Below, piece by piece: positions 1 to 31,206 of a stretch of 39,446 nt of DNA. Source of the stretch: a virus; IMG/VR virus record IMGVR_UViG_3300036832_000764, positions 1 through 39,446 of that record. One strand, written 5' to 3'. The notes beneath the pieces were generated by a model, which was not told where the DNA came from, searched no databases, and worked only from the letters and a program-made list of their open reading frames with translations. Positions within the stretch are counted from its first letter, which is position 1, and each line of letters opens with the position of its first letter. A program made the translations under genes and the position numbers.

Positions 1-1404
1 CGCAGCCAGCGTGCGTGCCGACCAGCCGGCCGCGCGCGGCTGCCCCACGCCATAGGAGCGCACTGGCGCGGATGGGTTCTCGATGATGACGAACACGGCC
101 TGTCGTTGCAGGTTCTCAAGGTAGTAAGGGTCGCCGGTCAGCAGCAGCGGAAGGTACGAACAGGCTGGCTGGTGCGCCGAATCCATGACGATCCCGCTGC
201 CCTTAGAATAGGTACCGTCGATGATCTCGGCGATCACGTCCGGCATCGTGTTGCTCCAGTTGTCGAGCACGCTAGCCGGCCCGTACGCCGGCTCGTTTGC
301 TCCCAGCAACTCGAATATGCTGGTCACCGTGCCATCCCCACCGATGGTCAGGTCCACGGGAACCCGGTACTGTTGGTTGTTCGCATCGAGCAGGTAGTTC
401 CACGTCGGCGGTGAGCCGTTCGGCGACAGCACGGTGCCTGGTGGGCCATGCACCGTTGCGTTCACGTATGACGTGCCGGAGGCATAGGTTATGAACGGAT
501 CGCCGGACTGCGCGTTGTACTGCGTCGCGTTCGGATACTGCACCACCGGGTCGATGACGGCGTTGGTATCGCGGTCGCAGTAGTCCCAGGTGAAGGTTCC
601 TGCCGCCTCGCCTTGTGCGATCACGTCCGCCAAACAGGCCGGGTCGTCTTCGTGGCACACGTAGCTTCCCTGCCACGCCGTCAGATGTCCGATGTCTCCG
701 CGGCCGCCGGTCTGCGGCATGTACGGACAGAGACCGGCCATGCCCATGATCTCGTAGCTGACGTGCCCGTAGCTGACCTCCTGACCGCGCGTGAGCCGAG
801 GATCAAAACGGGGCAGCAGCTTGTTGGCGTACAACGAGGCCATGCCCCGCATCGGGAACGGCCACTCGCAGGAAACCCAGCGCCATCGCTGGTACGCCGA
901 GTGTGAGGGGCAGTGCAGGGTGACTGGCGCCAAAAGCTCACTGCCCTCGATCGTCACGTCGTACTCGGGCAGATTGTAGTGCGCGGCGTCCTGCCAGAAT
1001 CCCTGACCGAACACCACACTGACACGCTGCTCCATGCGTCGGATGTCGATGCGGATCGGCGTGTCGGGATGGGTCACGCGGGTGCAACGCTCGGCAAACC
1101 GCATGTCCGGATCGTGGTAGGTGCCGAGATCGGCGCCATCTGATTCATCGAACACGAAGCTTGCACCGGTCATCGCCACCGTCACGCGCAGCGTCCCTGC
1201 GGCCGGCGGCTCGATCGGTGGCCGGTCTGGACGCGGTGGCCGATCTGGCCTGGGTGGCACGTCGATCGGCGGATCGGGCGGCACAGGCTCCGGTGGCGTC
1301 ACCTCGATCGAGCCGCTCGTAGTGCTCTCGAATGTGCCGGTGATTGTCGTGCCGTCCGCAGCGGTTGCCGTGATCGTGCCGGCGATGTGGATCGTGGCGC
1401 TCAT
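1..1404 (-). CDS. Partial unknown protein, paralogue of the PKD-bearing exported protein; no signal peptide
   Basis: Reading frame open from an ATG to the window edge (468 residues visible, 3' end missing). The start overlaps the stop of the holin-like gene by 4 nt (ATGA). The N-terminus (MSATIHIAGTITA) has no signal peptide; residues about 30-65 are a proline-rich hinge containing RPDRPPRPDRPP. From about residue 75 the protein aligns by eye with the core of the 903-aa protein two genes upstream. Shared blocks include FVFDES, YMPQTGGRGDIG, FTWDYCDRDTN, MDSAHQPACSYLPLLLTGD and YYLENLQRQ. The last block resembles helix hairpins of alpha/alpha-toroid polysaccharide lyases or glycosidases, but I do not recognise the family and no catalytic residue is proven. 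It may be a surface-polysaccharide enzyme or adhesin (inference). The tandem relationship is certain; the function is not. Confidence 0.85.
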   Translation of the reverse strand, partial: MSATIHIAGTITATAADGTTITGTFESTTSGSIEVTPPEPVPPDPPIDVPPRPDRPPRPDRPPIEPPAAGTLRVTVAMTGASFVFDESDGADLGTYHDPDMRFAERCTRVTHPDTPIRIDIRRMEQRVSVVFGQGFWQDAAHYNLPEYDVTIEGSELLAPVTLHCPSHSAYQRWRWVSCEWPFPMRGMASLYANKLLPRFDPRLTRGQEVSYGHVSYEIMGMAGLCPYMPQTGGRGDIGHLTAWQGSYVCHEDDPACLADVIAQGEAAGTFTWDYCDRDTNAVIDPVVQYPNATQYNAQSGDPFITYASGTSYVNATVHGPPGTVLSPNGSPPTWNYLLDANNQQYRVPVDLTIGGDGTVTSIFELLGANEPAYGPASVLDNWSNTMPDVIAEIIDGTYSKGSGIVMDSAHQPACSYLPLLLTGDPYYLENLQRQAVFVIIENPSAPVRSYGVGQPRAAGWSARTLAA

Positions 1405-1610
1405 GACTGACCTTTCAGACAGGCGGAGATGACGGGGGTGATCATCCGCTCGCGGGCACTGTCGCGGCGGTCGAGGAACCAGAACAGGCAGACGAGGAAG
1501 GCAGCGTTCAGCAGGATCACCAGTAGGAACTGCGCCGGTAGGGCGGTGAGCACCTTGCTGCTCGCCTCGATGGCGCCATGCGCGATGCCCTTGGCCTCTC
1601 CCTCGGTCAT
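1401..1610 (-). CDS. Small single-TM protein, holin-like
   Basis: A 69-residue protein with a short charged N-terminus, one strongly hydrophobic stretch at about residues 25-45 (AQFLLVILLNAAFLVCLFWF) and then a charged tail beginning LDRRDSARERM. Size and topology match putative holins seen near the end of late operons in proteobacterial phages; holins open the inner membrane at lysis. The gene is translationally coupled on both sides by ATGA overlaps, between the two paralogous large proteins. No endolysin lies beside it in this window, so the lysis role is an inference from topology and position. It could instead be a membrane anchor or chaperone for the neighbouring exported proteins. Confidence 0.6.
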   Translation of the reverse strand: MTEGEAKGIAHGAIEASSKVLTALPAQFLLVILLNAAFLVCLFWFLDRRDSARERMITPVISACLKGQS

Positions 1611-4318
1611 GTCACCGGCCCCTTGATCCCGTACTTGGCTGGGATCGGTATCTTGCCTTGCGACGGGTCAGTGTTTTGAGGGAGGGTCGCGTCCGTCAGC
1701 ATCCGGGTCCACAGCTTTGTCGAGGCCGCTGTCACCTCGGTGTGCCCGGCCTGCCATGCAAGATTCAGCGCCATCCCCAGCAATCCGTAATAGTCGTATT
1801 GGCCATAAGCCATGACCGGCATGACAGTCGGAGACGGCGGACCAGGCGGCCCATAAATATTCGCTTGTTGACCGTTGACGGGATTAGCCCAGAGCGTCAC
1901 GCTCTTTTGCCACATAATTTGGTAATTAGGGTACCATAGGCTCCCTTGGGTGTCCGATGTCTTGGCTCCGTAGATCGTTGGCCAGCCGCTTCCCCAACCA
2001 ACACCACCATCATCGGCCAGTCTTGCGATCTGTTGCTGCACAAACCACGACACGATGGCTGGCCATATCGCAATGGTCGGATGCAGAAAAACGATCATAG
2101 ATAGACCAGACAGACAGATGTCTTCCTGATACTGCTCGTACCATGTCACGGTATTGTCGGGAGAGTTAAGCTCGGTGGATGCCCAGACACCGCCGCTAGT
2201 GCCCGAAAGGCCAGCGGAGCCGGCGACGACATGGAATACGGTTCGTATCGTTGCCGTGCTGTCCAGCGTTTCCGTCTTGAAAAGAGGCGCCCATTGATTA
2301 AGCATCCCTATAAACAACGATTGCGGATGCAACCACGAGGGCGGTGATACTGGCGAGACCTTCGCCGCCGATGCCAGGGTGCGCGCTGTCCATCCCGTCG
2401 ACCTAGCCTGGAGGACCCCGTATGTTCGCACAGCCGCGCTGGGATTTTCCATCAGGTTAAACATAACCTGGCGTTGCAGGTTCTCCAGAAAATAGGAGTC
2501 TCCGGTCAGTAGGTAAGGCACATAGCTCATGGCTGGCTGATGCGACGAGTCCATAGAGACACCGGAACCCACACTGCCATTGCCGCCTGGCACGGTGCTC
2601 TGGGTGATCGTCACAGTACCGGCGAGCGAGCCGAGGTTGAATGGCAGAACCGGCCGCAACGTGGTCAGGCTCTCGACAAACTGCGTGGTAATCGTCCCCC
2701 CGGCGCCGATGGTATAGTTGAATCTGATCTTGGCGTTGGTGGCATCATACATGATACCGGTCTCGAATGTAACGTCCGTTCCGGTGGTGTCGCCGTTGAT
2801 CAGTTGCCCAGGCGGCCCGGTCACATCAACGAAGGTGTAGCCATTGCCGTATGGTACGACAATCAATGGGTCTGACTGATGGCGCGGATCAACGGTCGCG
2901 GCTGGGTAGGTCTGGAAGGCGTCGATAAGATTGTTGGTCGCCGGATCAACATAGTCCCAGTTGTAGCTACCGCCGGTCTCGGCCTCTCCCAGCATGGTTG
3001 CCTTGGCGGACGTATTGCTCTCGTTGCCAAGATACCAAGCCTGCGCCTCCGTCACGATGCCAATGTCCGAGCGTCCGCCGGTCTGCGGCATGTAAGGGGT
3101 CAGGCCATCAAACGTCAGCGGTGTGAAGGGGGTCTGGTTGACCGCCGCGCCAGGGAACGGATCACCGCCGCGCGTCATGCCGAACACGAACTCCGGCAGC
3201 GTCTTCGCGGCATAGATCGTCGCGGCTGACTTCAGTGCGAAGGGCCATGGCTGAGAGACCCAGCGCCAGCGAGCATAGCCGTTGTGATACGGCAGGTTGA
3301 TGGTGACGGGGCCGCCAGTCAGTTCACTCCCCGAGATGACCACGGTGTATGGATCAACCACAACACCGGAGGAGGGATTGTTGAAGTACCCGTAGCCGAC
3401 CACTACCGATACCCGGTTGCCGGTGCTGAGCCGGCGGAAGTCCACCCGGAACAGCGTGCCGGTGACCTTGGTGCGGAAACAGGTTTCGGTGAAGCGCCCG
3501 TCCGGATCGGAATAGGTGCCGAGATTGACTCCGGCAGACTCATCGAACACCAGATTGGCGCCGCCAGCCAGCGTGAACGTCGCGCGCAACGTGCCGGGAG
3601 TGACCGTGCTCGATGTGATCGAGGTGTTCGCCGTGGCGGTGATCGTGGGCGTCGCCGTGATCTTCATCGTCACGACAGCGGTTCTGGTCCCGTCCGTGGC
3701 GTAGGTGTGGCCGGTCGCACCGGCCACCGTGAAGCTGGTAGGACCGCCGCTGACAGTGCCGGCGACCACACCGCCGCCATCGCCCCAGTTTACCGTGCCG
3801 GTCATCTGAGCGGCCGTCTTGGTCGGATCGCTGCATGTGAACTGAGCCACCGCAGCGGTGTAGGGCGTGCCCGTTGTCGCGGTCAGGGTAAGACCGGTGC
3901 CGGTGATGGTGATGGATGATGCCGGGTTGACGGTCATCGAACTGTTCGCGGTGCCGATAACCGTGGGCGTCGCCGTGAGCTTCATCGTGGCGTTTACGGT
4001 GAACGGCCCTGCTGCCGAATAGGTATGCGACGGTCCCGCCACCTGAAAGTTCGTCGGGCCGCCGGTCACGGTTCCGGCCATGACACCGGTCCCGTCACCA
4101 AAGTCCACGGTACCGGTCATCTGCGCTGCGGTCTTCGTCGGGTCACTGCACGCGAAGTTGGCGACCGTTCCGGTGAACGGAGTGCCCGCTGTGGCGGTCA
4201 GTACCAGAGGATCGCCAGTGATCGTTGTGGTGGGACCGAGGCCACTGTTGCCAGCCCGCCAGGCGGTCCCGACGATCGCTGCGCCGCCGAGCAGAAACGC
4301 ACGCCTCTTGTTCATCAT
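1607..4318 (-). CDS. 903-aa exported protein: twin-arginine-like signal, two PKD-like repeats, unknown core
   Basis: The frame is open further upstream, but the start chosen is the tandem ATG ATG at 4318/4315, which overlaps the previous stop. It gives MMNKRRAFLLGGAA, a twin-arginine-type signal (RRxFL followed by a hydrophobic run). Residues about 30-125 and 126-235 are two homologous PKD-like modules (VDFGDG/HTYSAAG and VNWGDG/HTYATDG). From about residue 240 the core matches the signal-less paralogue at the window's left end: YMPQTGGRSDIG, YNWDYVDPATN, MDSSHQPAMSYVPYLLTGD (near residue 588), FLENLQRQ. The core's repeated hydrophobic helices suggest an alpha/alpha toroid, as in some polysaccharide lyases (weak inference). 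PKD modules usually mediate extracellular binding. The C-terminal half (about 1.8-2.5 kb) looks lower in G+C than its surroundings, suggesting separate acquisition. Confidence 0.8.
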   Translation of the reverse strand: MMNKRRAFLLGGAAIVGTAWRAGNSGLGPTTTITGDPLVLTATAGTPFTGTVANFACSDPTKTAAQMTGTVDFGDGTGVMAGTVTGGPTNFQVAGPSHTYSAAGPFTVNATMKLTATPTVIGTANSSMTVNPASSITITGTGLTLTATTGTPYTAAVAQFTCSDPTKTAAQMTGTVNWGDGGGVVAGTVSGGPTSFTVAGATGHTYATDGTRTAVVTMKITATPTITATANTSITSSTVTPGTLRATFTLAGGANLVFDESAGVNLGTYSDPDGRFTETCFRTKVTGTLFRVDFRRLSTGNRVSVVVGYGYFNNPSSGVVVDPYTVVISGSELTGGPVTINLPYHNGYARWRWVSQPWPFALKSAATIYAAKTLPEFVFGMTRGGDPFPGAAVNQTPFTPLTFDGLTPYMPQTGGRSDIGIVTEAQAWYLGNESNTSAKATMLGEAETGGSYNWDYVDPATNNLIDAFQTYPAATVDPRHQSDPLIVVPYGNGYTFVDVTGPPGQLINGDTTGTDVTFETGIMYDATNAKIRFNYTIGAGGTITTQFVESLTTLRPVLPFNLGSLAGTVTITQSTVPGGNGSVGSGVSMDSSHQPAMSYVPYLLTGDSYFLENLQRQVMFNLMENPSAAVRTYGVLQARSTGWTARTLASAAKVSPVSPPSWLHPQSLFIGMLNQWAPLFKTETLDSTATIRTVFHVVAGSAGLSGTSGGVWASTELNSPDNTVTWYEQYQEDICLSGLSMIVFLHPTIAIWPAIVSWFVQQQIARLADDGGVGWGSGWPTIYGAKTSDTQGSLWYPNYQIMWQKSVTLWANPVNGQQANIYGPPGPPSPTVMPVMAYGQYDYYGLLGMALNLAWQAGHTEVTAASTKLWTRMLTDATLPQNTDPSQGKIPIPAKYGIKGPVT
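3600..4240 (-). repeat. Tandem PKD-like module duplication (about 315-bp period)
   Basis: Two adjacent coding repeats of about 105 codons each. The shared core CSDPTKTAAQMTGTV is identical in both copies and is followed by DFGDGTG or NWGDGGG. The DNA has diverged at many third positions while the protein core is kept, so the duplication is not very recent and the module is under protein-level selection. Confidence 0.85.
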
Positions 4319-5304
4319 GGGATGCCTACGACGTTGCCGCCCCCGAAGAAGGTCGCGGTGTGACTGGTCGAGGTGTTGCCCTCTAGGAAGTAGATGACAC
4401 CGCCGAGCGTGTGGATGGCGGCGGCCGACTGAAGGTCCATCACGCAGTACCTCAGCGAGTTGCTGGTATTGAGACCCTGGTTCGTGCTCTCGGTGGCATA
4501 GTTGATGCAGTTGTTGCTGTCGGCGGTCGCGAGCTTCTGGATCGTGGTGTTGTGCCACTCGAAGTAACCGCCCTCCGGCATGTCGACGCACGCGCCATGC
4601 AAGGACTCGTAGAAGCCGCCATAGGAATAGAGGTTGGACGCCCTGCACTTGATGGCGTGCGCCTCCAGAGGATTGCGGCTGTCGACATTGATGAGCGTGA
4701 CCGAGGTCGCGGCGCCGAAATAGGCGTTGTGGGTCAAACTCCCGGTGTTGTTGGGCAGGCCATTGTGCAACAGCCGGGTGTTGGCCACAGTGATACGCAC
4801 CACCGCCGGGTTGGATGAGCCGATGCCGTTCTGATTGTCGTGGAGGAAGCCGCCGACGACGGTGTTGACGCTGCCGGCGCCGTCCGAGGAAATGCGGATG
4901 GCGCTGGTCAGATCACCGCCGGTCCAGAACGCATTGTCGGTGCCGACACCAGTGATTTCGCCTGGGTAGACGAGGATGTTCGGTGCGAATAATTCGATGG
5001 CGCCTTTGCCACCTCCTGCCAAAGACCCCGGCGGCACATGGTTGAAGTCCCAGACACAGCCTCTGAAATCCAGCAGGATGCTCTTGTTGATGGTTAGCGA
5101 TTCTGCGGGTTGGGCCGGGTCAACGACGATGCGGTCGAAGTCGGAGGCGGCAGCGAGCGCGGCGGCGATGGTGGCATAGGTCTGGCCGGGGCCGACGCGG
5201 CGGAGTGTTCCGGAGAAGGCAGCGCCCGGTTCTGCCGCCTGCCGCCAGCCGCCGAGCGAGAGGGCACCGAGGCCAGCCAGTACATGGCGCCGGCTCAGTT
5301 CCAC
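4315..5304 (-). CDS. Exported right-handed beta-helix protein with twin-arginine signal
   Basis: A 329-residue protein. The GTG start lies inside the end of the upstream gene (10-nt overlap). The N-terminus MELSRRHVLAGLGALSLGG is a textbook-like twin-arginine signal (SRRxxLAG then a hydrophobic run). GPGQTYATIAAALAAA at about residues 38-53 is the opening pattern of right-handed parallel beta-helix proteins of the pectate-lyase superfamily. It is followed by short repetitive beta rungs (INKSILLDFRG, NTRLLHN, VTLINVDSRN, NNCINYA). Such folds occur in phage tail-spike depolymerases and in bacterial polysaccharide lyases. A substrate cannot be read from sequence. The export signal is odd for a virion tail spike and suggests secretion by the host, or a retained host-derived domain. 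Confidence 0.75.
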   Translation of the reverse strand: MELSRRHVLAGLGALSLGGWRQAAEPGAAFSGTLRRVGPGQTYATIAAALAAASDFDRIVVDPAQPAESLTINKSILLDFRGCVWDFNHVPPGSLAGGGKGAIELFAPNILVYPGEITGVGTDNAFWTGGDLTSAIRISSDGAGSVNTVVGGFLHDNQNGIGSSNPAVVRITVANTRLLHNGLPNNTGSLTHNAYFGAATSVTLINVDSRNPLEAHAIKCRASNLYSYGGFYESLHGACVDMPEGGYFEWHNTTIQKLATADSNNCINYATESTNQGLNTSNSLRYCVMDLQSAAAIHTLGGVIYFLEGNTSTSHTATFFGGGNVVGIP

Positions 5305-6083
5305 GCAGCGAACCCGGAGGGTAGCGTGGTCAGGATGAACGGGGTGCCGCCTGTGCCGGTGGTATTGAGCGTGGCCCCGGCCGGCGCCTGCACGCCGAAC
5401 ATGATGAAGACGTTCGGGAACGAGCCATAATCAGTTAGGGGTATGCCCCCGGTGGTGGTTCCGGGGTTCTGTTGGGCGAGACTCTGGGCGTTCCATGTCG
5501 GCGGCGAGGTGCCCTGATATGTCAGGTTCGCGACCCACAGTAAGTTGTTTGAAAGATCGAGAGCGAAGCCCAACACGTCATCATTATTCTGGCACGCCGC
5601 CGCCGAGCCGTTGGTGTTGACCCCGTTGTGGGTCACGATCATGCCTTGGGCACTAATATTGTTCGACATGACGAAGCCATAGGTCGTCAGATCACCGGTC
5701 TGACCAAATCCTGCGGTCAGCGATGAAGAAGCCAAGCCGGTCGCGAGTTGCGCCACGTAATCCGTGCTGGTGTTGAGGCATTTGATCTCGAAATAGAACT
5801 TTCCGCCACCGGTCGTGCCACTCCGGCTCGTGGTGGTGCGAACGGACCTGCCTGTGCTGTCCGGTGCAATGGCTGTCAGGTTGCCGCCCGATAGCGTGAT
5901 GCCGGAATTGTGGGCCGGGTCCCAGGTCGTCGCCCCACCACCCGTCACAACGGTCGGCTGGACATTAGGACCATAGCGTTTGGCGCCAAATCCGAGCGGC
6001 TGGTTCGTGGCATTCGGCGAGACCGGCTGTGCCGTCGCAGCCACCGCCGACAGCGCGAACCACAGAGCCAGAAACCACCGCAT
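5295..6083 (-). CDS. Exported SPRY-like (concanavalin-type) domain protein
   Basis: The ATG at 6083 overlaps the upstream stop (ATGA) and gives MRWFLALWFALSAVAATAQ, a Sec-type signal with a likely cleavage after ATA. The 262-residue protein continues with a pattern I recognise as SPRY-like. The visible blocks are NSGITLSGGNLTA, VRTTTSRSG, GKFYFEIKCL, then YGFVMSNN, DDVLGFALDLSNNLLWVA and a closing TLPSGFAAWN. SPRY-like beta-sandwiches are known in phage proteins of unknown role and in eukaryotic binding proteins; they bind ligands rather than catalyse. It may be a receptor- or glycan-binding component of the exported set. Longer upstream extensions of the frame were rejected because they overlap the neighbour in a shadow frame. 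Confidence 0.72.
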   Translation of the reverse strand: MRWFLALWFALSAVAATAQPVSPNATNQPLGFGAKRYGPNVQPTVVTGGGATTWDPAHNSGITLSGGNLTAIAPDSTGRSVRTTTSRSGTTGGGKFYFEIKCLNTSTDYVAQLATGLASSSLTAGFGQTGDLTTYGFVMSNNISAQGMIVTHNGVNTNGSAAACQNNDDVLGFALDLSNNLLWVANLTYQGTSPPTWNAQSLAQQNPGTTTGGIPLTDYGSFPNVFIMFGVQAPAGATLNTTGTGGTPFILTTLPSGFAAWN

Positions 6084-6781
6084 CAGTTGTACCCGTAACC
6101 GGCGATGGCACGGGCATCCGATGCGATCACCGATACCGCATTGGCCGAGGGCGCGAGGTTGTAAGCGTCGCCCGGCTTGATGCAGATCGTGGAGCCGGAT
6201 GAGGACGTGCCAGCCGCAGTGCTGAGTTCGTTGATACACAAATTCGTGGTGGCCACCAACGGATTGACGATGAAGCCGCCCTTGAGACGATGATTGGCGG
6301 ACAACGCATTGACCGCCGTGCCGGCTGTAGTCGTGGCGACATCCAGCGCGGTGACGGTGACGGTGCCTGGCATGATGGCCACCGGCAGTGCACCGGTCCC
6401 CCCGCCTTGGACGCCGACAAGGCTGGTCGGCGGCGTGCCGGGAGCACTGACGCCGGCCTTCAAGTCGAGGTCGATCTGCTTCCAACACGCCATCGCGGTG
6501 ATCGAGCCGGTACAGGCAGCGGTATCGCCCTTGGTTCCGAGGGTCACGATGGACCCATCCGCCGCGTTCACCGGTCCCTCGCCTGCCGGATTGATGAGCC
6601 AGCTTTGCGTCAGCACGCCAGGATTGGTGATGACGTGCTTGAACATCGACGTGCCGCCGACAACCACTCCGGCCATCGGCGTCAGTGTTCCGGTCGTCGG
6701 CACCGTGATGCTGATGGTCGTGTCAGTCGCCCAAGCGGATGCCGGCAGCAGGGCGAGGCAGGCAAACAGTAGCTTCTTCAT
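6083..6781 (-). CDS. Exported protein with Sec signal and a tail-tip-like C-terminus
   Basis: A 232-residue protein preceded by a strong ribosome-binding site (GAGGGGG, 5 nt before ATG). MKKLLFACLALLPASAWA is a classical Sec signal with AWA cleavage. The rest is Thr/Ala/Gly/Val-rich beta-type sequence. The last about 65 residues (KGGFIVNPLVATTNLCIN, ICIKPGDAYNLAP, VSVIASDARAIAGYGYN) resemble small jelly-roll or capping modules at the ends of phage structural proteins (inference). Paired cysteines (TAACTGSITAMACW; LCIN/TICI) would be compatible with disulfides in an exported protein. Enzymatic function is not evident. Confidence 0.68.
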   Translation of the reverse strand: MKKLLFACLALLPASAWATDTTISITVPTTGTLTPMAGVVVGGTSMFKHVITNPGVLTQSWLINPAGEGPVNAADGSIVTLGTKGDTAACTGSITAMACWKQIDLDLKAGVSAPGTPPTSLVGVQGGGTGALPVAIMPGTVTVTALDVATTTAGTAVNALSANHRLKGGFIVNPLVATTNLCINELSTAAGTSSSGSTICIKPGDAYNLAPSANAVSVIASDARAIAGYGYN

Positions 6782-6797
6782 CAGGTCCCCCTCGCGG

Positions 6798-8414
6798 CTA
6801 CAGCGCCGCTGGCAAGTAGATCAGGTTGCAGGTTTGCGAGAAGTCGAGGCTGTTGGTGCAGCCGGTCACCGCCGTGGCGGTGATGGTAATCGGCGCCGAC
6901 GTGAACGGGCTGTTGGAGAACGAGGTGTCGGTCACACGCACCGTGATCGAGTAAGTGCCCGGTGGCTGTACCCCGTTGGTCAGCAGGTGGTTGCTTCCCG
7001 ACGGGGAGATGACGAACCGGCCAGAGTCGGTGCCACCGAGCGGACCATAGCCGCCAGTGAAGGTTCCGCTGGAGACGATGGTGGTGAAATCACCGACCGC
7101 TGTGCCGCTCGCTGAATTGCCGGGGAAGCTGCTGGGAGATAGCGACACCGCCGTTATCGTCGGTCCCGCAGTCGTGCCAGAGATGGTGATCGGGGCCGAG
7201 GTGAATGGCGAATTCGTAAAGGCCGCATCGGTGGCCCGCACCGTGACGCTGTAGGTGCCGGTGGCCGCCACACCATTCGTCGCAATCTGGTTGCCGTTCA
7301 CGATCTGGAATTGCGAAGGGTTGGTGCCGCCCAGAGGACCGTAGGTGCCACCGAACGATCCGGCGGAAACCGTCGTGCTCAGTGTGCCGACGATCGTGCC
7401 GCTGGCCGAACCGCCGATGAAGTTGGTCGGGGATAACGCGACCGCGTTGATGGTAGCCGGAGGAGCCGTGCCGGTAATCGGGATTGCCACCGAGGTGAAC
7501 GGCGAATTGCTGAAGCTCGCATCCGTGCCGGTGATGGTGATCGAGTAGCTGCCTGCCGGCTGGGTGCCGTTCAGCACGAGGTTGCTGCCGGCAATGCGGA
7601 ACTTCGATCCGTCAGTGCCACCCGGACCCGAGTAGGTGCCACTGAAGGTGCCGGACGAGACCGTGGTGCTGATGGTGCCCACGATGGTGCCGTCGCCGGA
7701 GCCGCCGGGGAAGTTGTTGTTGCTCAACTGGATGCTGGAGATGGTGGGCGGCCCTGCGGTGCCACAGACCGTCAGCGCACCACCGGTCAGGATCACGACA
7801 GTGCCGATGGGCTGGCCGACACAGGTGGTTGGCAGGCCGGAAACTGCGAGAGTTCCGGTCAGTGAGGTTCGGGCGGAGTTGTTGCCGATGCTGATCGTGC
7901 TCGCTGATCCGCCGAGTGCCATGCCGCTCGCCGTCGAATCATAGGTCGTGGCCTGGAGTGGACCCGCGACCGTGAACTGATTGGCCGTGCCGCCGGCATT
8001 CATCTGCACCGGGTTATTGAAAATGCCGCTGCTGCCGCAGGCGCCAGCCGCCAGCAGACGCCCGGTCGTATCGGCGTAGGTCGCGCATTGACCGGCGACC
8101 ACGGGAGGGGTCGGGCCTACAGTGAACGTTCCGGTCGCTATGGCCCAGTCAGTCAGGTCGTTATGATTGAGTATCACCGCGCCAGTTTTGCCGGCGACCG
8201 AGGTCACGCCGCCGACCGGCGCCGGCTGACAGTTGAGCACCGTGCCGTTCCAGGAAAGCGGGCCAGAGCAGGCTGGCAGATCGAGCTTCTTGGCCCACCA
8301 CATATTCACTTCGTCGGCGGTCGGCACGTAGCGGTCGGACCAGTTTGGCGATGACTGCGCAAGTACGGTTGCGGGCAGCAGGAACAGCAGCAGGGCGGCA
8401 AGAAGCTTACGCAT
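6798..8414 (-). CDS. Tail-fibre-like protein with Sec signal and three cadherin-like repeats
   Basis: The ATG at 8414 overlaps the zinc-ribbon gene by 8 nt and gives MRKLLAALLLFLLPATVLAQ, a clear Sec signal. The mature part starts with a phage-fibre-type opener (WSDRYVPTADEVNMWWAKK). It then has VTSVAGKTGAVILNHNDLTDW, a motif widespread in tail fibres. Residues about 225-525 hold three repeats of about 98 residues of cadherin/Ig-like character, each ending FTSxxIxITxT. Total length is 538 residues. The combination of tail-fibre motifs with an export signal is unusual, because virion proteins are normally assembled in the cytoplasm. Similar signal-bearing fibre-like proteins seem to recur in alphaproteobacterial prophages, from general memory and unverified. 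Confidence 0.75.
   Translation of the reverse strand: MRKLLAALLLFLLPATVLAQSSPNWSDRYVPTADEVNMWWAKKLDLPACSGPLSWNGTVLNCQPAPVGGVTSVAGKTGAVILNHNDLTDWAIATGTFTVGPTPPVVAGQCATYADTTGRLLAAGACGSSGIFNNPVQMNAGGTANQFTVAGPLQATTYDSTASGMALGGSASTISIGNNSARTSLTGTLAVSGLPTTCVGQPIGTVVILTGGALTVCGTAGPPTISSIQLSNNNFPGGSGDGTIVGTISTTVSSGTFSGTYSGPGGTDGSKFRIAGSNLVLNGTQPAGSYSITITGTDASFSNSPFTSVAIPITGTAPPATINAVALSPTNFIGGSASGTIVGTLSTTVSAGSFGGTYGPLGGTNPSQFQIVNGNQIATNGVAATGTYSVTVRATDAAFTNSPFTSAPITISGTTAGPTITAVSLSPSSFPGNSASGTAVGDFTTIVSSGTFTGGYGPLGGTDSGRFVISPSGSNHLLTNGVQPPGTYSITVRVTDTSFSNSPFTSAPITITATAVTGCTNSLDFSQTCNLIYLPAAL
6850..7745 (-). repeat. Three cadherin/Ig-like coding repeats (about 295-bp period)
   Basis: Three successive modules in the fibre-like protein share GTYSITVRxTDxxFxNSPFTSAPITI and YGPLGGT cores. 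The copies differ moderately from each other. A repeated beta-sandwich stalk of this kind typically spaces a binding tip from its anchor. Confidence 0.8.
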
Positions 8415-8748
8415 CCGGCACATCCTCCGGTACAGCCGACAGGTGTGGCTCGTGATCGCCCGGCAGCGGCACGCTGCCCGGCATCTGGATCGCGGCGAAA
8501 CCGGGACGGGGGTCGCGCGGGCCAATCGAGTCGGGGCCGATGATGATCGGCCGGCGGCCATTCGGCTGCGGTTCATCGAGACAGTTACGGCACACCAACA
8601 GCCCCAGGTTGGCGAGTTCCGAACCACGCCAGTCGGACTGCCAGGTCAGGTCGCGATGCAGATATTTGAAGCCGCAGCGGTCGCACCAACCCGGCGGTTC
8701 GGGGTGTCGCCAACTGGCCGGGGCACGGGGAGAGTGGGGAACAGGCAC
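8407..8748 (-). CDS. Small zinc-ribbon phage protein
   Basis: A 113-residue protein with a GTG start and a GGGAG box about 8 nt upstream. It contains CDRCGFKY at about residues 22-29 and CRNCLDEPQPNGRRPII at about 53-69, i.e. two CxxC pairs about 28 residues apart, expected to bind one zinc. The pattern WCDRCGFKY...LTWQSDWRGSELANLGLLVC...C resembles short zinc-ribbon proteins often found among phage tail genes, whose role is unknown to me. It follows the 2150-aa gene after a 53-nt gap containing a GC-rich inverted repeat (GGCCG-CGC-CGGCC) without a T run. It overlaps the first exported protein gene by 8 nt. Confidence 0.75.
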   Translation of the reverse strand: MPVPHSPRAPASWRHPEPPGWCDRCGFKYLHRDLTWQSDWRGSELANLGLLVCRNCLDEPQPNGRRPIIIGPDSIGPRDPRPGFAAIQMPGSVPLPGDHEPHLSAVPEDVPDA

Positions 8749-8801
8749 GCGCGCACTCCCGCAAGGGGGCGGCCGGCGCGGCCTGATGACAGTGGTTTAG
8801 C

Positions 8802-11800
8802 CTAGTCTGAGAACAGATGCACCATACCAGGCGGCTCGCGCTTGCGCAGCCCCTTCTTCTCCTCGCGCAACTGACGGCGCTCGCCAAGCTCCGGCTGGGT
8901 GATCGACTTGGGCGGCGCCTGGATACCGAAGAACGACAGCAGCCGGTCGGCTCGCGTGGTGCCCTCGGCCTCGCCCACCTTCATGTACGACCGGATCGAG
9001 AACGGCAGCAGTTGATTGACGGCGTAGTCGGCGTACTGGGCAGCGGTGCTGCTGTCGCGCAGGTCGGTGGCGATCGGGCGGCCGTAGTAGTCCTGGTTGT
9101 GGTAGAGTTCCTGAAGCGTCTGCACCAGCGGGTGAGTCTTGTTCAGCAGCGTCTGGACCGGCGCGTGGGTGTACTCGATCACGTCCTTCCAGTAGGACGG
9201 CAGCGACCAGCGGGTCGGCTCGCCCTTCTCGTCGGTGCCGCCGTTCAGCGGGAAGAAGGCATCCATGGGCTGTTGCGGCCCCTGTCCGGTCGCCGCATAG
9301 GTCAGCATCGAGCCCCACAGCGCGACCACCGCCGGCATCGCCATGGAGTAGGCCATGCGGGCAGTGAACTCGGGACGACGTAGATGGGCCATGTCGTTGA
9401 CCGCGCGCAGCCCGTCCAGTGTGCCGCCGGCCAGTTCGCGGATCGTGCCCAGGTTCCAGCCCACCGACCGCTGCATGATGAAAGCGATGTCCTTCATCGT
9501 CTTGTTCCAGAACACGTTGTCGTAGCGCATCTGGCCGAGCCGGTTGTCCACGCTGTCGGAGAACTTGATCATCGCCGCGCTACGCTCCTCGGGCGTCGCG
9601 TTCGGGTTCATCCGCTGCCAGTTCTCCGCCATGGCCGCGAACACGCCGGCCTTGATCCGGGGCACGAACGCCCCCATGAGCGGTTCGTTCATGGTATCTA
9701 CGGCGCGGAACGCAAGTTGGAGCGGCACCAACAGCGCCTTTTCCGGCAGCGTCTTGGCATCCCCCAGCATCTGCCACGCCGCGTAGAACGGCGAGGTGGG
9801 GTGCTGCATGTCGGTCCAGTTCTTGAAGAACGCGCCGCTGGCGTTGGAGCGGTAGAAGTCCGGCATGGTGAACTGGCCGCCGCCCTGATTCATCAGGTTG
9901 GCAACCCGAGCCCAGCGCGGATCGGCGTTCTGCGGATCGAGCCACGCGGTGCGGAACTGGCCGCCCTGGCGGGCTGCCTTCGCCATCGCGAGCGGCGTGG
10001 TGCCGAGCAGGATGTTGCCCAGGCCGCGCCCTAGCTGGCCTTCCAATGTCTGCTGCACCCCGAGCGCCACGGTCGAGATCATGCTGTCCATCGTCACGAA
10101 GGTCGCATGGAACATGGACAGGCCAAGCTGCATCATGTTGAGGAAATTGCCAGAGCGGCGGAACGCGTCGTAGACCGCCGACTCGCCGGCCAGACCACGG
10201 CTCATGTAGTTGTTGAAGATTCGTGCCGCTGGCTCAGCCGCCCAGTAGGACCCTGGCGACAGCCGGCCCCACCCGGCCGGATTGGCGGCGCCGATCAGTT
10301 GCGGTTTGAACATCCGGTCGTTCAGTTCCACCATGCCGGCGTCACGGGCGGCACTCTCGTTGCCGGCGGGCACGAAGCGGGCGATGCCCTTGGCCTTCAA
10401 CTCGTCGTACATATGGTTGCCGAAGTAGAACTTCTGCATCTCGCGCAGCTTGATAAGCTGCATGTCGATCGGGTTGTAGGTGACCGGTGTCAGTTTGCCG
10501 ACCTGAATGCCTTCACGCTGGGTCGCGTAGTAGCGTTGCTTCAGGAATGCCTTGCCGCCTTCCAGCGGCTGCTTGGACGCGGCGGCGCGGGCTGCCTCGG
10601 GGCTCCAGTCGGACCAGATGTGGCCCATGTAGTTCTGGATGGCATTGGTAAGGAGGCCCTTGCCCATGCCCTGGATGGCACGGGTCCAGCGGTCCAGTTC
10701 GCCGCGCAGCAGGTCCATCGCGTTCTGGAGTTCCGGGGTCTTCTGCCGCTGCCCGGTCTCGGCGCGGTAGGTGGCTTCCTCCTGTTCCGCCTGCGGCAGC
10801 TTGTCGACGTAGAAGCGTGCCGCCGAGACGGCATGGACCGACTGGTCGTAGGCACGCTGGGCGCGCGATGACCAGGGGCGGACAGTCTGTTCGGTCGAGG
10901 CGGCGCCGCGCATCGAGGTGGGCGCGAACGCGGCCCTGATCTCACCGATCCAGCGGTCGAGGCCCTTCTTGTCGCGCAGTACCTCGTACGGCGGCGGGCC
11001 TAGGCCGAGCCCTCTGGGGGCGCGGGCAAAGAGCGTTCCCTGAACAGGTGGGGGTTGGCCTTTTGGTATCTGATCGAAGCCTGGACCTTCCTGATCAGCC
11101 CCTGGTCTACCGCCTGCCGGCGCAGTGGCGGCGGCGCTTTGCGCATCCGCTCCAGGAAGGCGAGCAAGTCCTTCATCGGGGAGAACGGATTGGGTGTATC
11201 TATCATGTACCGACGCGGCATGGCCCGCAGTCTCCAAAACCTGTCGCAATGCCCGCTCTATAGGAGGCGGCATTTTCTGGGAGGACACATAGTCAATCTG
11301 TCCCTGCGCATGAAGGATGCGATTGAGCATATCGTCGTAGCCTAGCGTGGCTTCGTCCGGGGTCAGGTGTCCTGCGGCAACCAGTTTCCCCAGAACTCTT
11401 TGAACACCCCGCTCCAAGTTCGCCACAGCCTGCTCGAAAGCCTTCTGTATCATCCCGAGCGCCTTTGGACGCGCTCTCGCCAGGTCGGCAAATTGGCCGG
11501 TCGCCCTGGCGCTGAAAAATTCACCATCATGCCCGACGGCAACGACGTGGCTGAGTGCTGGATGAAGCGCCATCACCAGGTCGGCCATAGACAAAGATAC
11601 GGTACCGCTAAATTCCTCGAATGGCGGATGGTTGTGGTGCAGCGTAACCGAGTCGTCCGGCAGTTTGTCCAGCATCTCGATCGGCACTTCCACCGACTTC
11701 ACGTTGGCGATTTGCGTCTGAACCGCGTCGGTGGCCTCGTGGATGATCTGTCCGGTGGCGTTGTCGACGAACGCCATATGCTCGTTGCCCGACACGCGTC

Positions 11801-14800
11801 CTGCGGCGACCACCCGATCGGCGGCGAGCCGATGCCCTGTCGGCTGAGGAGCCTGCTCGACTGGCGCCGCCGGCTGCTCTAGCGGCAGCCCAGGGTATAT
11901 CGTCTCAGGCTCCTCAAACATGCCGCCCGGCGCTTGCTGCGGCACACGTGGCTGTAACGCGCCGCGACCGGCCTGATCGCGCGCCGCCTGCGCCTGTTGG
12001 GCGGATGGTCCCATACCGGGCATCTGCTCCTGGCGGGGATCGTTGCCGATGGTGAACTCAGGCGCTCGCGGCGCTCGCCCGGCTGCCGGACCACCGAAGA
12101 TGTCGCCCTGTCCTGGGGCGATCTCCCGGCGTCGCGCCTCTAGTTCGGTCGCCGGGCCTTCTCCTGCGCCCGCTTGTCCGCGTCCTGCATCCCCAGAAGG
12201 AACCTGGTCTTGTCGTATAGGCGTTTCGCCAGCGCCCTCTGCTCGTCCGACGACCCCGGGTTCGCCAGGACCTGCCGCGCGTTGCTCCACATCTGTAGCG
12301 TCCGGCGTCTGCTGATACTCACGTTCCAGGTCCTCCAAGGTCCGTGCCTGCGACTGTCCGTAAACTTCGGCTTCCTTGGCCTGTCCGCCAACCCCCTTCG
12401 ACAACGCTCGGTGTATTTCAATGGCGTCATGCTCCTGCTGCGCCATCTCATCGGCACGCTGTTCGGTCGTCATCTTCTCGCGCAGCATGTCGTGGAACGT
12501 CGCAGCGGTCACGCCGCTGATCGGCAGTCCGTGAACCAGCGCCGCCCGTTTGATTTCTTCGTTGTAGTCGAGCGCCTGGTGGTGGGCGTCGGCGCGTTCC
12601 GCGTCGTGCATCGAGTAGACCGGCGCACGGTTGTGGTCCTGGTCGATAGCGTTCAGCAGTTCGCGGTAGTCGTTGGTTCCTTCAGGCAGGTAGCCTGCCT
12701 CGACTGCCGCCTGAGTCGCAGCGTCCAGCGTGCGGCCCTTACTGTTGATCAGGCCGATGCGGTTCTTTTTGTCCCCGCCGATGATCTGGAGGATTTCGCC
12801 GCTGGAATCCTGCACCCCACCAGGGTCCGCCCGCTGGTGAATACCGGAACCGGTGACGATCTTCTGGATCAACCACTGGTTCAGCCGCATCGGTGCCGGC
12901 GGCACAGGCTGCAACGGCGTCCGCCTGCCACCCTCCGGCGTCGGCGCAATATCCGGGGCGCCGAAGGTGCCGGAGGGTGGAGGTGGCTCTGGCGGGAGGG
13001 TGCCAGGCACTTCGCCGGTCGGGGTTGGGAGTGGGGTCGGAGTTGGCTCGCGGGGCGGCGTGTTGAACAGGTCCGGCGCCCGCGTCGGCGGCGGCAGTGT
13101 GCCGGTCGACGGAGGACGGGTGGGGTCGAACAACGTGCCCGTCGCTGTGGGAGACGGCGTGCCCGGCGGCGCGGCGCCCTCTGGCGGCTGGCCCTGTGCG
13201 ATGTCCAGCAACGTCTTTTCCGGACCGGCTGGCGGTCGCGCAGGCGGCGGTGTTGGAGGTGTTGGCCCGGCAGGTGTGGTCGGGGCGGGTTCAGCGGCCG
13301 CCGCCTGCGCTTCGGCCTCCTCGTTCGCCGCCTGCTCCGGGGTGCGCGCTGGAGCGCCTGGAGGCCCGGCTGGCGGCGTCTCAGCGCCCGGTGGTGTCCC
13401 TGCCGGCCTGCCGGCTGCGATACGGTCCAGCGCCCGCTCAGCGCCAAAGTGAGCCAGTGCCGGGGCCGCCGTGCCGACCACCGCGCCTGGCACACCAGCC
13501 AACAGGTCCTGCCCGACCGGCTTGCCCTCGGCGACGTTGGTCGCTGCCTGTTCCCCGATCGCAACACCGGGCTGAATGCCCGCCGCCTGGAACATCATCT
13601 GCTTCAGCCGGCCGGTCAGGGCTTGTTGGACCGCCTCGGAATTGATGCCGAGCGTCCTCGCCAGGGCGGCCGGCGTGATACCGAAGGCCGCGAACCCGGC
13701 GCCCGTGAACGCCGCGCCGATCCCGGTCTTGACCATGGCACGATCGAAGGCACCGTCCGGATCGTTCGGTGTCGCCTGTAGCTCCGCGCCCCAGGTTTCG
13801 CCGAGTGAGGAGGCGGCATGACCCAGTGCGGCGCCCATGGCGCCAAACGCCAGACCGACCGGGTTGTCCGGTCCGCCGCCGAACAGCGACCCGCCGAAGA
13901 AACCCGCCATGGCCGGTGACGACGCCAGCAGGCCGTAGACGCCCTTCTGCGCCAGCACGCCGGGTCTGAGGAAATCGCCCCACTCGATCGGCTGCGCGGC
14001 GACGATGTTCGGCGTCACGGTGCCGGGACGCGCGCCGACCAGGGCGCCAGCCGTCGCCCCGATGCCACGGAAGGGCGCCTTGGCGCCCTCTACCGCTGCG
14101 TTCCAAAGTCCGGTGTCGTTCGGCGCCACCGGTCCGGTCCGCGACGCCTCGTCGGTTTGCGCCATTGGCAGTGTCGCCACCGCCTGCGCGCTGGTCAGTG
14201 GGCGGTCGCCGCCGGGGATGGCCGCCTGCTGACGCCCAAACGGATTGTCGGAGGGTGCGGCCTGCTGGCGCCCGAAAGGGTTGTCGTCAGGGGCGGCCGG
14301 CGCGGCTGCCGCTGCCTTGGGCCGCGGTGCCTGCGCCGTCATGGCGCCATAGCCGGCGGAGGGATGCACCGCGCCCGCGACCGCGCCGGTGAAGTAGGCG
14401 CCGTGCTGCTGCGCTGTCTGCTCCAGCATGGGGTTCAGTCGCGCCAGGTCAGGCCGGTTGCCGACGCCGACCAGCGATATGTCGGACACGCCAAGGCCAC
14501 GCAGCTTGGCGATCTGCTTGTCCACCAGGTCGATCTGGTGCGGATCGTTGCTGGCCCCGCTCGACAGGATCACCGGGCGGCCGCGCAACAGGTCGGGCTG
14601 GTTCTTTTCGATGTACTCGATCTTGTCCAGCACCTTGCGCGGGTTGTCGCCAACCGTGGTCATGCCCTGGTAGCGACCCTGATTGCGGATACCCTCGCCG
14701 AGACTGTCGCCGATCACGTAGGGCGTGGAGTCTGTCGGCGCTGGAGGTCGTGTCGGCTGTGTCGCTTGTGTCGACTGAGGTTGCGGCGGTGCGGGCTGCG

Positions 14801-15254
14801 ACGGCTGCGGCTGATACTTGCGGCGAAACGCATCGACCCGCGACATCACGTCGTTGACGTACTGCTCTTGGGTATCCGTCCAGGTGCTGGGGTCTGGCCC
14901 ACGGTTGTACGCCGCCAGCGCCATCGCGGGGTTCTGCCCGAACTTGTCGAGCATTTCGCGGAAGTACTTCGTGCCGGCGAAAACGTTCTGTCGCTTGTTG
15001 AACGGATCGGTGATGCCGAAATTCTGAAAGTTCCGGTCGTTGATCTGCATCAGCCCGTAGTCGGTGGTGCCGTTCTCATTGGTGTTCGTTGCATTCGGGT
15101 TGCCGCCGCTTTCGTGCCCGATCAGCGCGTGGATGTACGACGGGTCGACGCGGTACTGGGATGCAGCATCCTGGACGATCGCGTCGGTCAGGCTCCCCGC
15201 CGCAGGCGCCTGTGCCGGAGCCTGCTGCCCGAATGGGTTGTCATCAGGCGGCAT
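8802..15254 (-). CDS. Giant 2150-aa putative ejection/polyvalent protein: lytic transglycosylase, SGNH-like and JAB-like domains
   Basis: The ATG at 15254 overlaps the upstream stop (ATGA); a 126-codon longer frame was rejected as a shadow. Residues about 20-145 are a lytic transglycosylase (SLT) domain: HESGGNP holds the catalytic Glu near residue 49, followed by YGLMQIN and LAAYNRGP. Residues about 175-305 look like an SGNH hydrolase: GDSLGEG, SSGASND and a terminal AVHPS. The Asp usually three residues before the His appears to be Ala. Three NPFG repeats flank these domains. A hydrophobic Gly/Ala-rich stretch (about 380-560) and Pro-rich linkers follow. Near residue 1205, HHNHP...SMAD matches a JAB/JAMM metal site. 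The last about 730 residues are helical and resemble ends of giant phage internal proteins. The likely role is cell-wall opening and DNA ejection. Two internal segments show a coding signal in another frame, so the single 2150-aa product is not certain. Confidence 0.75.
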   Translation of the reverse strand: MPPDDNPFGQQAPAQAPAAGSLTDAIVQDAASQYRVDPSYIHALIGHESGGNPNATNTNENGTTDYGLMQINDRNFQNFGITDPFNKRQNVFAGTKYFREMLDKFGQNPAMALAAYNRGPDPSTWTDTQEQYVNDVMSRVDAFRRKYQPQPSQPAPPQPQSTQATQPTRPPAPTDSTPYVIGDSLGEGIRNQGRYQGMTTVGDNPRKVLDKIEYIEKNQPDLLRGRPVILSSGASNDPHQIDLVDKQIAKLRGLGVSDISLVGVGNRPDLARLNPMLEQTAQQHGAYFTGAVAGAVHPSAGYGAMTAQAPRPKAAAAAPAAPDDNPFGRQQAAPSDNPFGRQQAAIPGGDRPLTSAQAVATLPMAQTDEASRTGPVAPNDTGLWNAAVEGAKAPFRGIGATAGALVGARPGTVTPNIVAAQPIEWGDFLRPGVLAQKGVYGLLASSPAMAGFFGGSLFGGGPDNPVGLAFGAMGAALGHAASSLGETWGAELQATPNDPDGAFDRAMVKTGIGAAFTGAGFAAFGITPAALARTLGINSEAVQQALTGRLKQMMFQAAGIQPGVAIGEQAATNVAEGKPVGQDLLAGVPGAVVGTAAPALAHFGAERALDRIAAGRPAGTPPGAETPPAGPPGAPARTPEQAANEEAEAQAAAAEPAPTTPAGPTPPTPPPARPPAGPEKTLLDIAQGQPPEGAAPPGTPSPTATGTLFDPTRPPSTGTLPPPTRAPDLFNTPPREPTPTPLPTPTGEVPGTLPPEPPPPSGTFGAPDIAPTPEGGRRTPLQPVPPAPMRLNQWLIQKIVTGSGIHQRADPGGVQDSSGEILQIIGGDKKNRIGLINSKGRTLDAATQAAVEAGYLPEGTNDYRELLNAIDQDHNRAPVYSMHDAERADAHHQALDYNEEIKRAALVHGLPISGVTAATFHDMLREKMTTEQRADEMAQQEHDAIEIHRALSKGVGGQAKEAEVYGQSQARTLEDLEREYQQTPDATDVEQRAAGPGEPGVVGRAEGAGETPIRQDQVPSGDAGRGQAGAGEGPATELEARRREIAPGQGDIFGGPAAGRAPRAPEFTIGNDPRQEQMPGMGPSAQQAQAARDQAGRGALQPRVPQQAPGGMFEEPETIYPGLPLEQPAAPVEQAPQPTGHRLAADRVVAAGRVSGNEHMAFVDNATGQIIHEATDAVQTQIANVKSVEVPIEMLDKLPDDSVTLHHNHPPFEEFSGTVSLSMADLVMALHPALSHVVAVGHDGEFFSARATGQFADLARARPKALGMIQKAFEQAVANLERGVQRVLGKLVAAGHLTPDEATLGYDDMLNRILHAQGQIDYVSSQKMPPPIERALRQVLETAGHAASVHDRYTQSVLPDEGLARLPGADAQSAAATAPAGGRPGADQEGPGFDQIPKGQPPPVQGTLFARAPRGLGLGPPPYEVLRDKKGLDRWIGEIRAAFAPTSMRGAASTEQTVRPWSSRAQRAYDQSVHAVSAARFYVDKLPQAEQEEATYRAETGQRQKTPELQNAMDLLRGELDRWTRAIQGMGKGLLTNAIQNYMGHIWSDWSPEAARAAASKQPLEGGKAFLKQRYYATQREGIQVGKLTPVTYNPIDMQLIKLREMQKFYFGNHMYDELKAKGIARFVPAGNESAARDAGMVELNDRMFKPQLIGAANPAGWGRLSPGSYWAAEPAARIFNNYMSRGLAGESAVYDAFRRSGNFLNMMQLGLSMFHATFVTMDSMISTVALGVQQTLEGQLGRGLGNILLGTTPLAMAKAARQGGQFRTAWLDPQNADPRWARVANLMNQGGGQFTMPDFYRSNASGAFFKNWTDMQHPTSPFYAAWQMLGDAKTLPEKALLVPLQLAFRAVDTMNEPLMGAFVPRIKAGVFAAMAENWQRMNPNATPEERSAAMIKFSDSVDNRLGQMRYDNVFWNKTMKDIAFIMQRSVGWNLGTIRELAGGTLDGLRAVNDMAHLRRPEFTARMAYSMAMPAVVALWGSMLTYAATGQGPQQPMDAFFPLNGGTDEKGEPTRWSLPSYWKDVIEYTHAPVQTLLNKTHPLVQTLQELYHNQDYYGRPIATDLRDSSTAAQYADYAVNQLLPFSIRSYMKVGEAEGTTRADRLLSFFGIQAPPKSITQPELGERRQLREEKKGLRKREPPGMVHLFSD
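11000..11221 (-). CDS. Possible nested gene or frameshift exit in the +1 frame of the giant gene
   Basis: A 73-codon frame inside the giant gene, one base downstream of its frame, ending in TAG. Counting by eye over 11041-11220, third positions are G/C in 48 of 59 codons in this frame but 26 of 59 in the host frame; the rest of the giant gene shows the opposite preference. The product is helical and charged (MKDLLAFLERMRKAPPP, LIRKVQASIRYQKANPH), whereas the host frame here reads as a low-complexity linker (GRPGADQEGPGFDQ). A GGAG box lies 10 nt before ATG. Alternatives are a small overlapping gene, a +1 frameshift product ending the JAB-like part, or a sequencing indel. Confidence 0.45.
   Translation of the reverse strand: MPRRYMIDTPNPFSPMKDLLAFLERMRKAPPPLRRQAVDQGLIRKVQASIRYQKANPHLFRERSLPAPPEGSA
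12140..12292 (-). CDS. Second possible nested gene or frameshift exit in the same +1 frame
   Basis: In the same alternative frame as the 73-codon segment 1 kb downstream, a 50-codon stretch from ATG to TAG reads as a helical, charged protein (MWSNARQVLANPGSSDEQR, RLYDKTRFLLG, DKRAQEKARRPN). Over 12181-12300 third positions are G/C in 35 of 39 codons here against 17 of 40 in the giant frame. The giant frame at this place is a Gly/Pro/Glu-rich linker (AAGPGEPGVVGRAEGAGE). No good ribosome-binding site precedes the ATG, so a frameshift from the giant frame at about 12300-12330, or an indel, is at least as likely as a separate gene. Confidence 0.42.
   Translation of the reverse strand: MWSNARQVLANPGSSDEQRALAKRLYDKTRFLLGMQDADKRAQEKARRPN
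14224..14290 (-). repeat. Adjacent DNPFGRQQA coding repeats
   Basis: Two copies of DNPFGRQQA lie about 36 bp apart in the giant protein. A third, DDNPFGQQA, occupies the extreme N-terminus (about 15226-15251). The repeats bracket the transglycosylase and SGNH-like domains. Such short repeats may be docking or packaging motifs (inference). Confidence 0.7.
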
Positions 15255-19162: not shown

Positions 19163-19652
19163 CGGCAGGCGCCCTGTCCATGTAGCGGAAAGTTCCGCTA
19201 CCAATCAGAAACGTCTGCGCAACAGGGCGCCCGTAACGCGCATACGCCTTAGCCTTGCGCTCCTGATCCTCCTTAGCCATGACGCCAAGCAGGACCGGAG
19301 TGCGAACGCCTTCCTCGAACCACCTGGCAAACCGCATCAGGGTTGCAAAGTGCCTCGACCGACGGTGCTCCGGGTGAACATAGACCAGAAGGTCGCTGTA
19401 CCACCAGCTTGCCGCATCGCCGTACCACATCCGGTTCGGCTGTAGTCCAAGAGCCGCCTCGATGCGCTGCGGCCCTCGCGTCAGGACGATCGGATAGCTC
19501 TCACGGCGTATCGCCTTGTCGATCACATCGCGGACGACATTGTGGTCGATGCCGCCCCAGCCGTTCTCCTCGTAGGCAAGCAGGAAGGTCTCGAATATCT
19601 CGTCGCGGTCCCGCTCCTCGATCCACCGCAACCCCTTAAACGGCAGCAGCAT
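19140..19652 (-). CDS. GNAT-family acetyltransferase-like protein (copy 2 of a tandem pair)
   Basis: A 170-residue protein. The start overlaps the upstream GNAT gene by 17 nt. The GNAT fold is suggested by the N-terminal helix-strand region, the central strand WWYSDLLVYVHPEHRRSRHFATLMRF (beta4 with the acetyl-CoA pyrophosphate-binding turn, normally R/QxxGxG/A and here degenerate as RRSRHF) and the C-terminal AKAYARYGRPVAQTFLIG. The following helix LMRFARWFEE matches LLEFSKWAAE of its neighbour, showing that the two genes are diverged duplicates. The substrate is unknown; it could modify host or virion proteins or surface sugars. Location among ejection-protein genes, not metabolic genes, suggests a virion-linked role. 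Confidence 0.7.
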   Translation of the reverse strand: MLLPFKGLRWIEERDRDEIFETFLLAYEENGWGGIDHNVVRDVIDKAIRRESYPIVLTRGPQRIEAALGLQPNRMWYGDAASWWYSDLLVYVHPEHRRSRHFATLMRFARWFEEGVRTPVLLGVMAKEDQERKAKAYARYGRPVAQTFLIGSGTFRYMDRAPADAGDQSQ

Positions 19653-21429: not shown

Positions 21430-21717
21430 CTAAGCTGCGACCGGTGCTCCCGACAAGTACGAATACCACGACCCAGTGGTCGGGTTCCAGAATACCGGCA
21501 CGCCGGTCCCGGCCCCTGCGCCCTCGCCCGGCTTGCGGCCGTTCGACGCCCATGCCGGAGCGCCATTGCCGTTCCCGGTGGTCGGCAGCGAGGCGACTGT
21601 GTAGCTCGGCGGGGCCTGCACGATCGCGATGCCGCCGGCGAGCTTCTGCTCGATCGCCGACAGCATTCGCAGGATCAACTGCCACACATTGACCAGAGGA
21701 TCGAGTGAGCCGCTCAT
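21430..21717 (-). CDS. Small tail-associated protein
   Basis: A 95-residue protein starting at the ATG that overlaps the tail-hub stop by 4 nt; the longer upstream frame is a shadow of the hub gene. An amphipathic helix (VWQLILRMLSAIEQKLAGG) is followed by YTVASLPTTGNGNGAPAWASNGRKPGEG and VPVFWNPTTGSWYSY. The VASLP...G..A...NGRKPGE pattern is typical of small beta modules attached to phage tail proteins. A minor tail or fibre-connector protein is likely. No enzymatic features. Confidence 0.68.
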   Translation of the reverse strand: MSGSLDPLVNVWQLILRMLSAIEQKLAGGIAIVQAPPSYTVASLPTTGNGNGAPAWASNGRKPGEGAGAGTGVPVFWNPTTGSWYSYLSGAPVAA

Positions 21718-23741: not shown

Positions 23742-23744
23742 CGG

Positions 23745-23972
23745 TTACTTGTGCTTGTTGTCTCGCCCGTGCTCCGGGGCGTGATCGTCCTTGGTCGTTG
23801 CCCGAGGCTCCGGCTCCTTGCTCGGCCCCTGACGCATCGCCTTGCCGACATTCGCCAGCCTGGGGTCCTCGTCGGAAAGCGTCACAGCGCCCTCCGGGTG
23901 ATCCTCCATGGTGGCGTCCTTGAACACCTCGACGACGTTGCCTTCGCCGTCCAGCCTCGCGAATACCGTCAT
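23745..23972 (-). CDS. Small hydrophilic protein next to the tail fibre
   Basis: A 75-residue protein, ATGA-coupled to the end of the tail-fibre gene. It begins MTVFARLDGEGNVVEVFKD, a pattern common in very short proteins or domains linked to phage tail fibres, and ends in a charged, disordered tail (KEPEPRATTKDDHAPEHGRD). Possibly a fibre-assembly helper or minor tail protein; no fold can be assigned. Confidence 0.62.
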   Translation of the reverse strand: MTVFARLDGEGNVVEVFKDATMEDHPEGAVTLSDEDPRLANVGKAMRQGPSKEPEPRATTKDDHAPEHGRDNKHK

Positions 23973-31203: not shown

Positions 31204-31206
31204 ACC

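Follow-up and report, generated by a model that had tools for sequence, protein, structure and literature searches.

Tail-fibre-type proteins with predicted export signals in an uncultured bacterial virus and in unrelated viruses

The combination of an export signal with a tail-fibre-type protein recurs in many unrelated viruses, and it is probable from their sequences that, before the host cell bursts, the carriers move part of their set of cell-gripping proteins through its inner membrane. The window analysed here is IMG/VR virus record IMGVR_UViG_3300036832_000764 (39,446 bases), from an uncultured bacterial virus, in which five consecutive minus-strand genes between 8414 and 1607 all bear signal-like N-termini, located where a preliminary description of the sequence had placed them. 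Tail fibres and tailspikes are held to be cytoplasmic virion parts. These data are read economically as likely export of proteins of tail-fibre type, given the architecture and rarity of the signals, their conservation over divergent sequences, the occurrence of both signal types at one position, the modular joins to fibre domains and the conservation of a cysteine pair. All of this support is sequence-based, and the carriers are mostly metagenomic fragments.

Gene context and predicted export signals

The late genes of the window lie on the minus strand and encode a terminase, a portal, a P22-type stabilisation protein and two very large ejection-type proteins, in an order similar to that of Roseobacter phage CRP-902, phage DSL-LC04 and Manatee Spring phage ct7L0027. 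The five genes (g5 to g1, going downstream) occupy the downstream end of this late virion module. Host contamination was rejected as the source of the sequence, given the presence of the terminase, portal and P22-type stabilisation protein in the order seen in CRP-902 and DSL-LC04. The main features are the following:

1-1404, minus strand: g0, a paralogue of g1 without signal (start MSATIHIAGTITATAADG), cut by the contig end
1401-1610, minus strand: 69-aa single-span membrane protein, coupled between g1 and g0
1607-4318, minus strand: g1, 903 aa, Tat-like start MMNKRRAFLLGGAAIVG / KRRAFLLGGAAIVG
4315-5304, minus strand: g2, 329 aa, GTG start, Tat-like start MELSRRHVLAGLGALSLGG / SRRHVLAGLGALSLGG
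5295-6083, minus strand: g3, 262 aa, predicted Sec signal MRWFLALWFALSAVAATA followed by QP (nt 6083-6030, site between ATA and QP)
6083-6781, minus strand: g4, 232 aa, predicted Sec signal MKKLLFACLALLPASAWA followed by TD (nt 6781-6728, site between AWA and TD)
6798-8414, minus strand: g5, 538 aa, predicted Sec signal MRKLLAALLLFLLPATVLA followed by QS (nt 8414-8358, site between VLA and QS)
8802-15632, minus strand: large SLT-containing protein, 2276-aa ORF, ejection-type
15254-19204, minus strand: 1316-aa ORF, ejection-type
21714-23741, minus strand: P22-type stabilisation protein
23969-26470, minus strand: conventional tail fibre without signal (phrog_1980), used as internal control

Other features of the module include an acetyltransferase-like gene (19140-19652, minus strand), found at the same place in CRP-902, ct7L0027 and vB_OspP_OH, and, just before g5, a gene for a 113-aa protein with a CDRC...CRNC zinc-ribbon-like pattern (8407-8748, minus strand), the end of which overlaps the g5 start. 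Cysteine is absent altogether from the 1316-aa ORF and from the 8802-15200 part of the SLT-containing ORF. In a comparison of the large SLT protein, L041 comes closest to the window; there, a signal-bearing protein (~284 aa mature) follows a signal-less fibre and precedes an endolysin-like gene; a short lipoprotein-like gene of L041 (~4470-4763; MTRKIIVGVLVLALAGC) lies directly after its large SLT protein.

N-termini were evaluated with a home-made rule requiring a charged n-region, an uncharged hydrophobic h-region and an AxA-like site, which passes seven of the eight established E. coli signals given to it, the exception being the Tat-type TorA. In its strict form, the rule passes g5, g4 and g3, with their positive n-regions, hydrophobic h-regions and small residues at -3/-1, and 0/22 other window genes. 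The background is low, with passes for 5/263 annotated genes in six related phages, none of them among the 106 of these genes that encode at least 200 aa, and for 1/49 genes of BPP-1 (a lipoprotein-type start), and at the background rate at least three strict passes in five genes would be expected with a chance of ~7e-5. By this rule, the three genes encode textbook Sec/signal peptidase I starts, with cleavage and translocation predicted, in agreement with their initial description as Sec-like. The twin-arginine-like character ascribed to the last two starts is likewise borne out, as g2 and g1 present an RR motif followed by a moderately hydrophobic stretch, a Tat-like pattern found in 1/458 background ORFs; both fail the strict rule at the cleavage site, where they offer only weak signal-peptidase sites.

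Mis-called starts were discarded for g5 and g4, which have GGAGG ~8 nt upstream and GAGGGGG upstream, respectively, and for the signal-bearing fibres of viral contigs L014 and L015, which have strong SD-GTG starts, with no alternative start in L015. For g2, the next in-frame start comes only at codon 90. The starts of g3, g2 and g1 each overlap the stop codon of the preceding gene, and this coupling runs on into the 69-aa membrane protein and then into the ORF from 1404 (g0), forming a co-translated block at the end of the virion module.

Genes that close the late module, with a small membrane protein nearby, might also encode superinfection-exclusion or lysogenic-conversion proteins derived from fibre modules and acting in the envelope of the producer before lysis, for which phage envelope proteins that carry signals, such as Lom, provide a precedent (PMC12309495). 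We consider this quite improbable, since the genes are coupled to one another in a late operon, which points to late expression and away from an early or lysogenic programme, and the five starts lack a lipobox and no outer-membrane barrel is seen in g1-g5. The phage proteins known to use host export during infection (SAR endolysins, spanins, Lom and T5 Llp) are not of tail-fibre type, and their lysis or receptor-blocking domains are not seen in g1-g5, which show neither a muralytic domain nor a holin-family match.

The domain content of the five proteins was only partly corroborated. Mature g5 is composed of an NWxxxYVPT fibre N-domain followed by three weak Ig-like repeats, with eight cysteines, and the mature part of g3 matches phrog_10080, a family of unknown function (2.4e-10). 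The other labels of the preliminary description come from reading the sequence by eye: SPRY/lectin-like for g3, beta-helix-like for g2, and two PKD-like repeats (FGDG/WGDG...HTY) for g1, ahead of a ~660-aa domain also found in g0. The C-terminal small beta domain of g4 (residues 143-232, carrying Cys182 and Cys200) resembles small uncharacterised phage proteins. A Pfam search returned nothing for g1-g4, enzymatic or catalytic domains included, and the same four proteins matched no tail family. Comparison with solved structures gave nothing significant for g1/g0, g4, g3 or g2, and the AF2 model of the g1 domain had a pLDDT of 36. Among 50,697 phage records there were no direct homologues of g1, g3, g4, g5 or g0, and scans of bacterial genomes yielded no confirmed relatives.

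Signals as optional modules in other viruses

The phenomenon is not limited to the window or to one phage type. Search patterns drawn from the g4 C-terminal domain only identified 11 other viral loci, encoding about nine distinct proteins, and in all 11 a predicted Sec signal with an AxA-type site lies directly before the domain. The signal sequences of these loci diverge widely while their architecture stays, and Cys182 and Cys200 are invariant across the alignment. Furthermore, the gene immediately upstream of the g4 homologue bears a signal in 10/10 loci scanned, of RR type in six (for instance MNRRALLAGLPLWVGAAAAQ and MRRRALLASLPWWVGAAAAQ) and of Sec type in four; in L004, which lies outside the ten-locus scan, the neighbour start MKRRDLITQG fails the rules owing to an Asp. 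The RR-type upstream proteins match tail family phrog_5939 strongly (2e-49 and 4e-64), and the L004 copy matches, from residue 53 onward, tail proteins of T5-like, Synechococcus and Rhizobium phages.

The NWxxxYVPT domain of g5 is shared with fibres of several viral contigs, standing behind a signal in L014, L015 and L018/L019, and at the start methionine with no signal in two genes of L016 and in L017; the signal meets the fibre domain at the domain edge. The fibre that follows the baseplate genes of L014 and L015 has a signal in front of the N-terminal domain of the Bcep1 gp33, AB1 and Xanthomonas phage tail fibres (from residue 29 of L014 4775-5926). In contrast, these cultured members and L016-L018 start directly with that domain and have no signal. 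In L014 (a 73-kb record) and L015, the sole copy of the baseplate-adjacent fibre is the signal-bearing one. The L018 protein encoded at 7709-10081 is homologous to the tail spike of Pseudanabaena phage Pam5, which itself lacks a signal; the gene right after the Pam5 spike, Pam5_19, encodes a 155-aa signal-bearing protein. Within the window, g0 and g1 (residues 242-650) are 43% identical over 413 aligned residues, and the Tat-like start is found only on g1. Their shared domain is rare in databases, being found in L033 (5842-7557) and in EBPR siphovirus 1 gp39, both without signal. The paralogous domains of the window (1-1404 and 1607-3595, minus strand) are arranged in tandem, with the 69-aa membrane protein between them.

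Two cultured phages present comparable genes. In Burkholderia phage BcepC6B (NC_005887), gp19, annotated as a tail fiber protein, has a Sec-type start (MKKLIAILLAVPALALGA) like those of g5-g3, and its C-terminal part matches tail-fibre family phrog_11393. Its gene comes between that of a conventional fibre, a relative of BPP-1 bbp9, which precedes it, and the lysis genes, which follow. BPP-1 has its receptor-binding protein Mtd, a protein without signal, at this place. BcepC6B differs from the window in having one signal-bearing gene rather than five, and gp19 has no sequence homology to g1-g5; no remark on its signal was found in the literature. In Acetobacter phage phiAO1 (LC644971; host Acetobacter orleanensis), gene 380 (30552-33014, 820 aa) combines a signal with pectate-lyase-type and tail-spike matches, but it is a single gene with a different fold and no homology to the g1-g5 cassette. 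The phiAO1 genome also carries an annotated catalase gene (23390-25513, corresponding to L020 1391-3514) on the strand opposite to the tail genes.

Taken together, these comparisons indicate that the predicted signals keep their function while their sequence diverges, and that they behave as optional modules ahead of tail-fibre domains. The alternative is that the N-termini are not used for export, and that late virion proteins retain a hydrophobic tip, which might serve as an anchor. This alternative would fit the usual assembly of tail fibres in the cytoplasm, and also a report that phage DGR tail proteins lack signal peptides, an absence taken there as support for phage origin (PMC6199706). 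We judge it highly improbable, because n/h/c architecture and AxA sites are kept over diverged sequences, RR-type and Sec-type signals occur at the same position, the cysteine pair is conserved, and homologous fibres manage without such N-termini.

Cysteine content is also higher in mature parts of signal-bearing proteins (1.33% in 19 proteins) than in 27 signal-less fibre or tail proteins (0.71%; p = 0.002), in a comparison set that is small, hand-picked and composed of non-independent members. This enrichment was dropped as proof of export, and we take it as only suggestive, because of the nature of the set and because the signal-less g0 is likewise cysteine-rich.

Possible fates of the exported proteins

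The initial proposal of an exported set is well supported by comparison, through the diverged yet functional-type signals, their optional presence and the conserved cysteine pairs, and the roles proposed for it are supported only in part. The set does not amount to a whole tail, since the window keeps the signal-less fibre at 23969-26470 and the signal-less g1 paralogue at 1404-1. Of the two options that had been offered, the data slightly favour surface-acting enzymes or decoys freed around lysis over a part of the tail that matures beyond the cytoplasm.

Our main reading, which we hold tentatively and at close to an even chance, is that these are tail-fibre- or tailspike-type adhesins or depolymerases that are exported to the periplasm and released free at lysis. 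The set would comprise adhesins and probable glycan-active proteins, of which g5, g4 and g3 would cross the inner membrane late in infection via Sec and signal peptidase I, and g2 and g1 probably via Tat. The proteins would then fold in the oxidising periplasm, where the conserved cysteine pairs can form disulphides, build up there, and escape in soluble form together with the progeny when the cell lyses. Once outside, they may bind or cut surface glycans recognised by the virion, which would remove polysaccharide or cover the receptors of debris and neighbouring cells.

A competing explanation, which we regard as somewhat unlikely, is that they belong to the virion as genuine fibres: after export, they would be oxidised and trimerised in the periplasm, and would dock on otherwise complete particles once lysis breaches the inner membrane. 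In vitro, P22 tailspikes and T4 fibres supplied in free form are able to join finished particles, and BcepC6B gp19 occupies the position of Mtd. Docking is further favoured by the N-terminal fibre domain kept right behind the signal in g5 and in L014/L015, which is suited to virion attachment and counts against a free protein, and by the L014 and L015 records, each of which contains the baseplate-adjacent fibre just once. Crossing the inner membrane, moreover, would take a free protein only as far as the periplasm, and the weak cleavage sites of g2 and g1 and the absence of an enzymatic match for g1-g4 also count against the main reading. On the other side, L024, L027 and gp19 match only the C-terminal part of longer tail-protein profiles, which indicates that the usual attachment end is missing, and conventional fibres without signal are present in the same genomes as signal-bearing proteins, as in the window. 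Because of this coexistence and this loss of the attachment end, we weakly place release as free proteins ahead of docking. A broader proposal, that export of fibres by Sec or Tat, maturation in the periplasm through disulphides and trimers, and arming of finished particles at lysis form a widespread assembly route of Gram-negative tailed phages, appears unlikely.

The open-access literature searched contained no description of exported tail fibres as a class; one signal peptide among 52 genes has been reported for a Paracoccus phage (PMC4641407). Cultured carriers, such as Acetobacter phage phiAO1 and BcepC6B, exist for testing. If the signals are functional, phages of this kind either release soluble adhesins or depolymerases by host secretion or complete their tails outside the cytoplasm, and either outcome would alter both the annotation of such genes and their use as host-range predictors.
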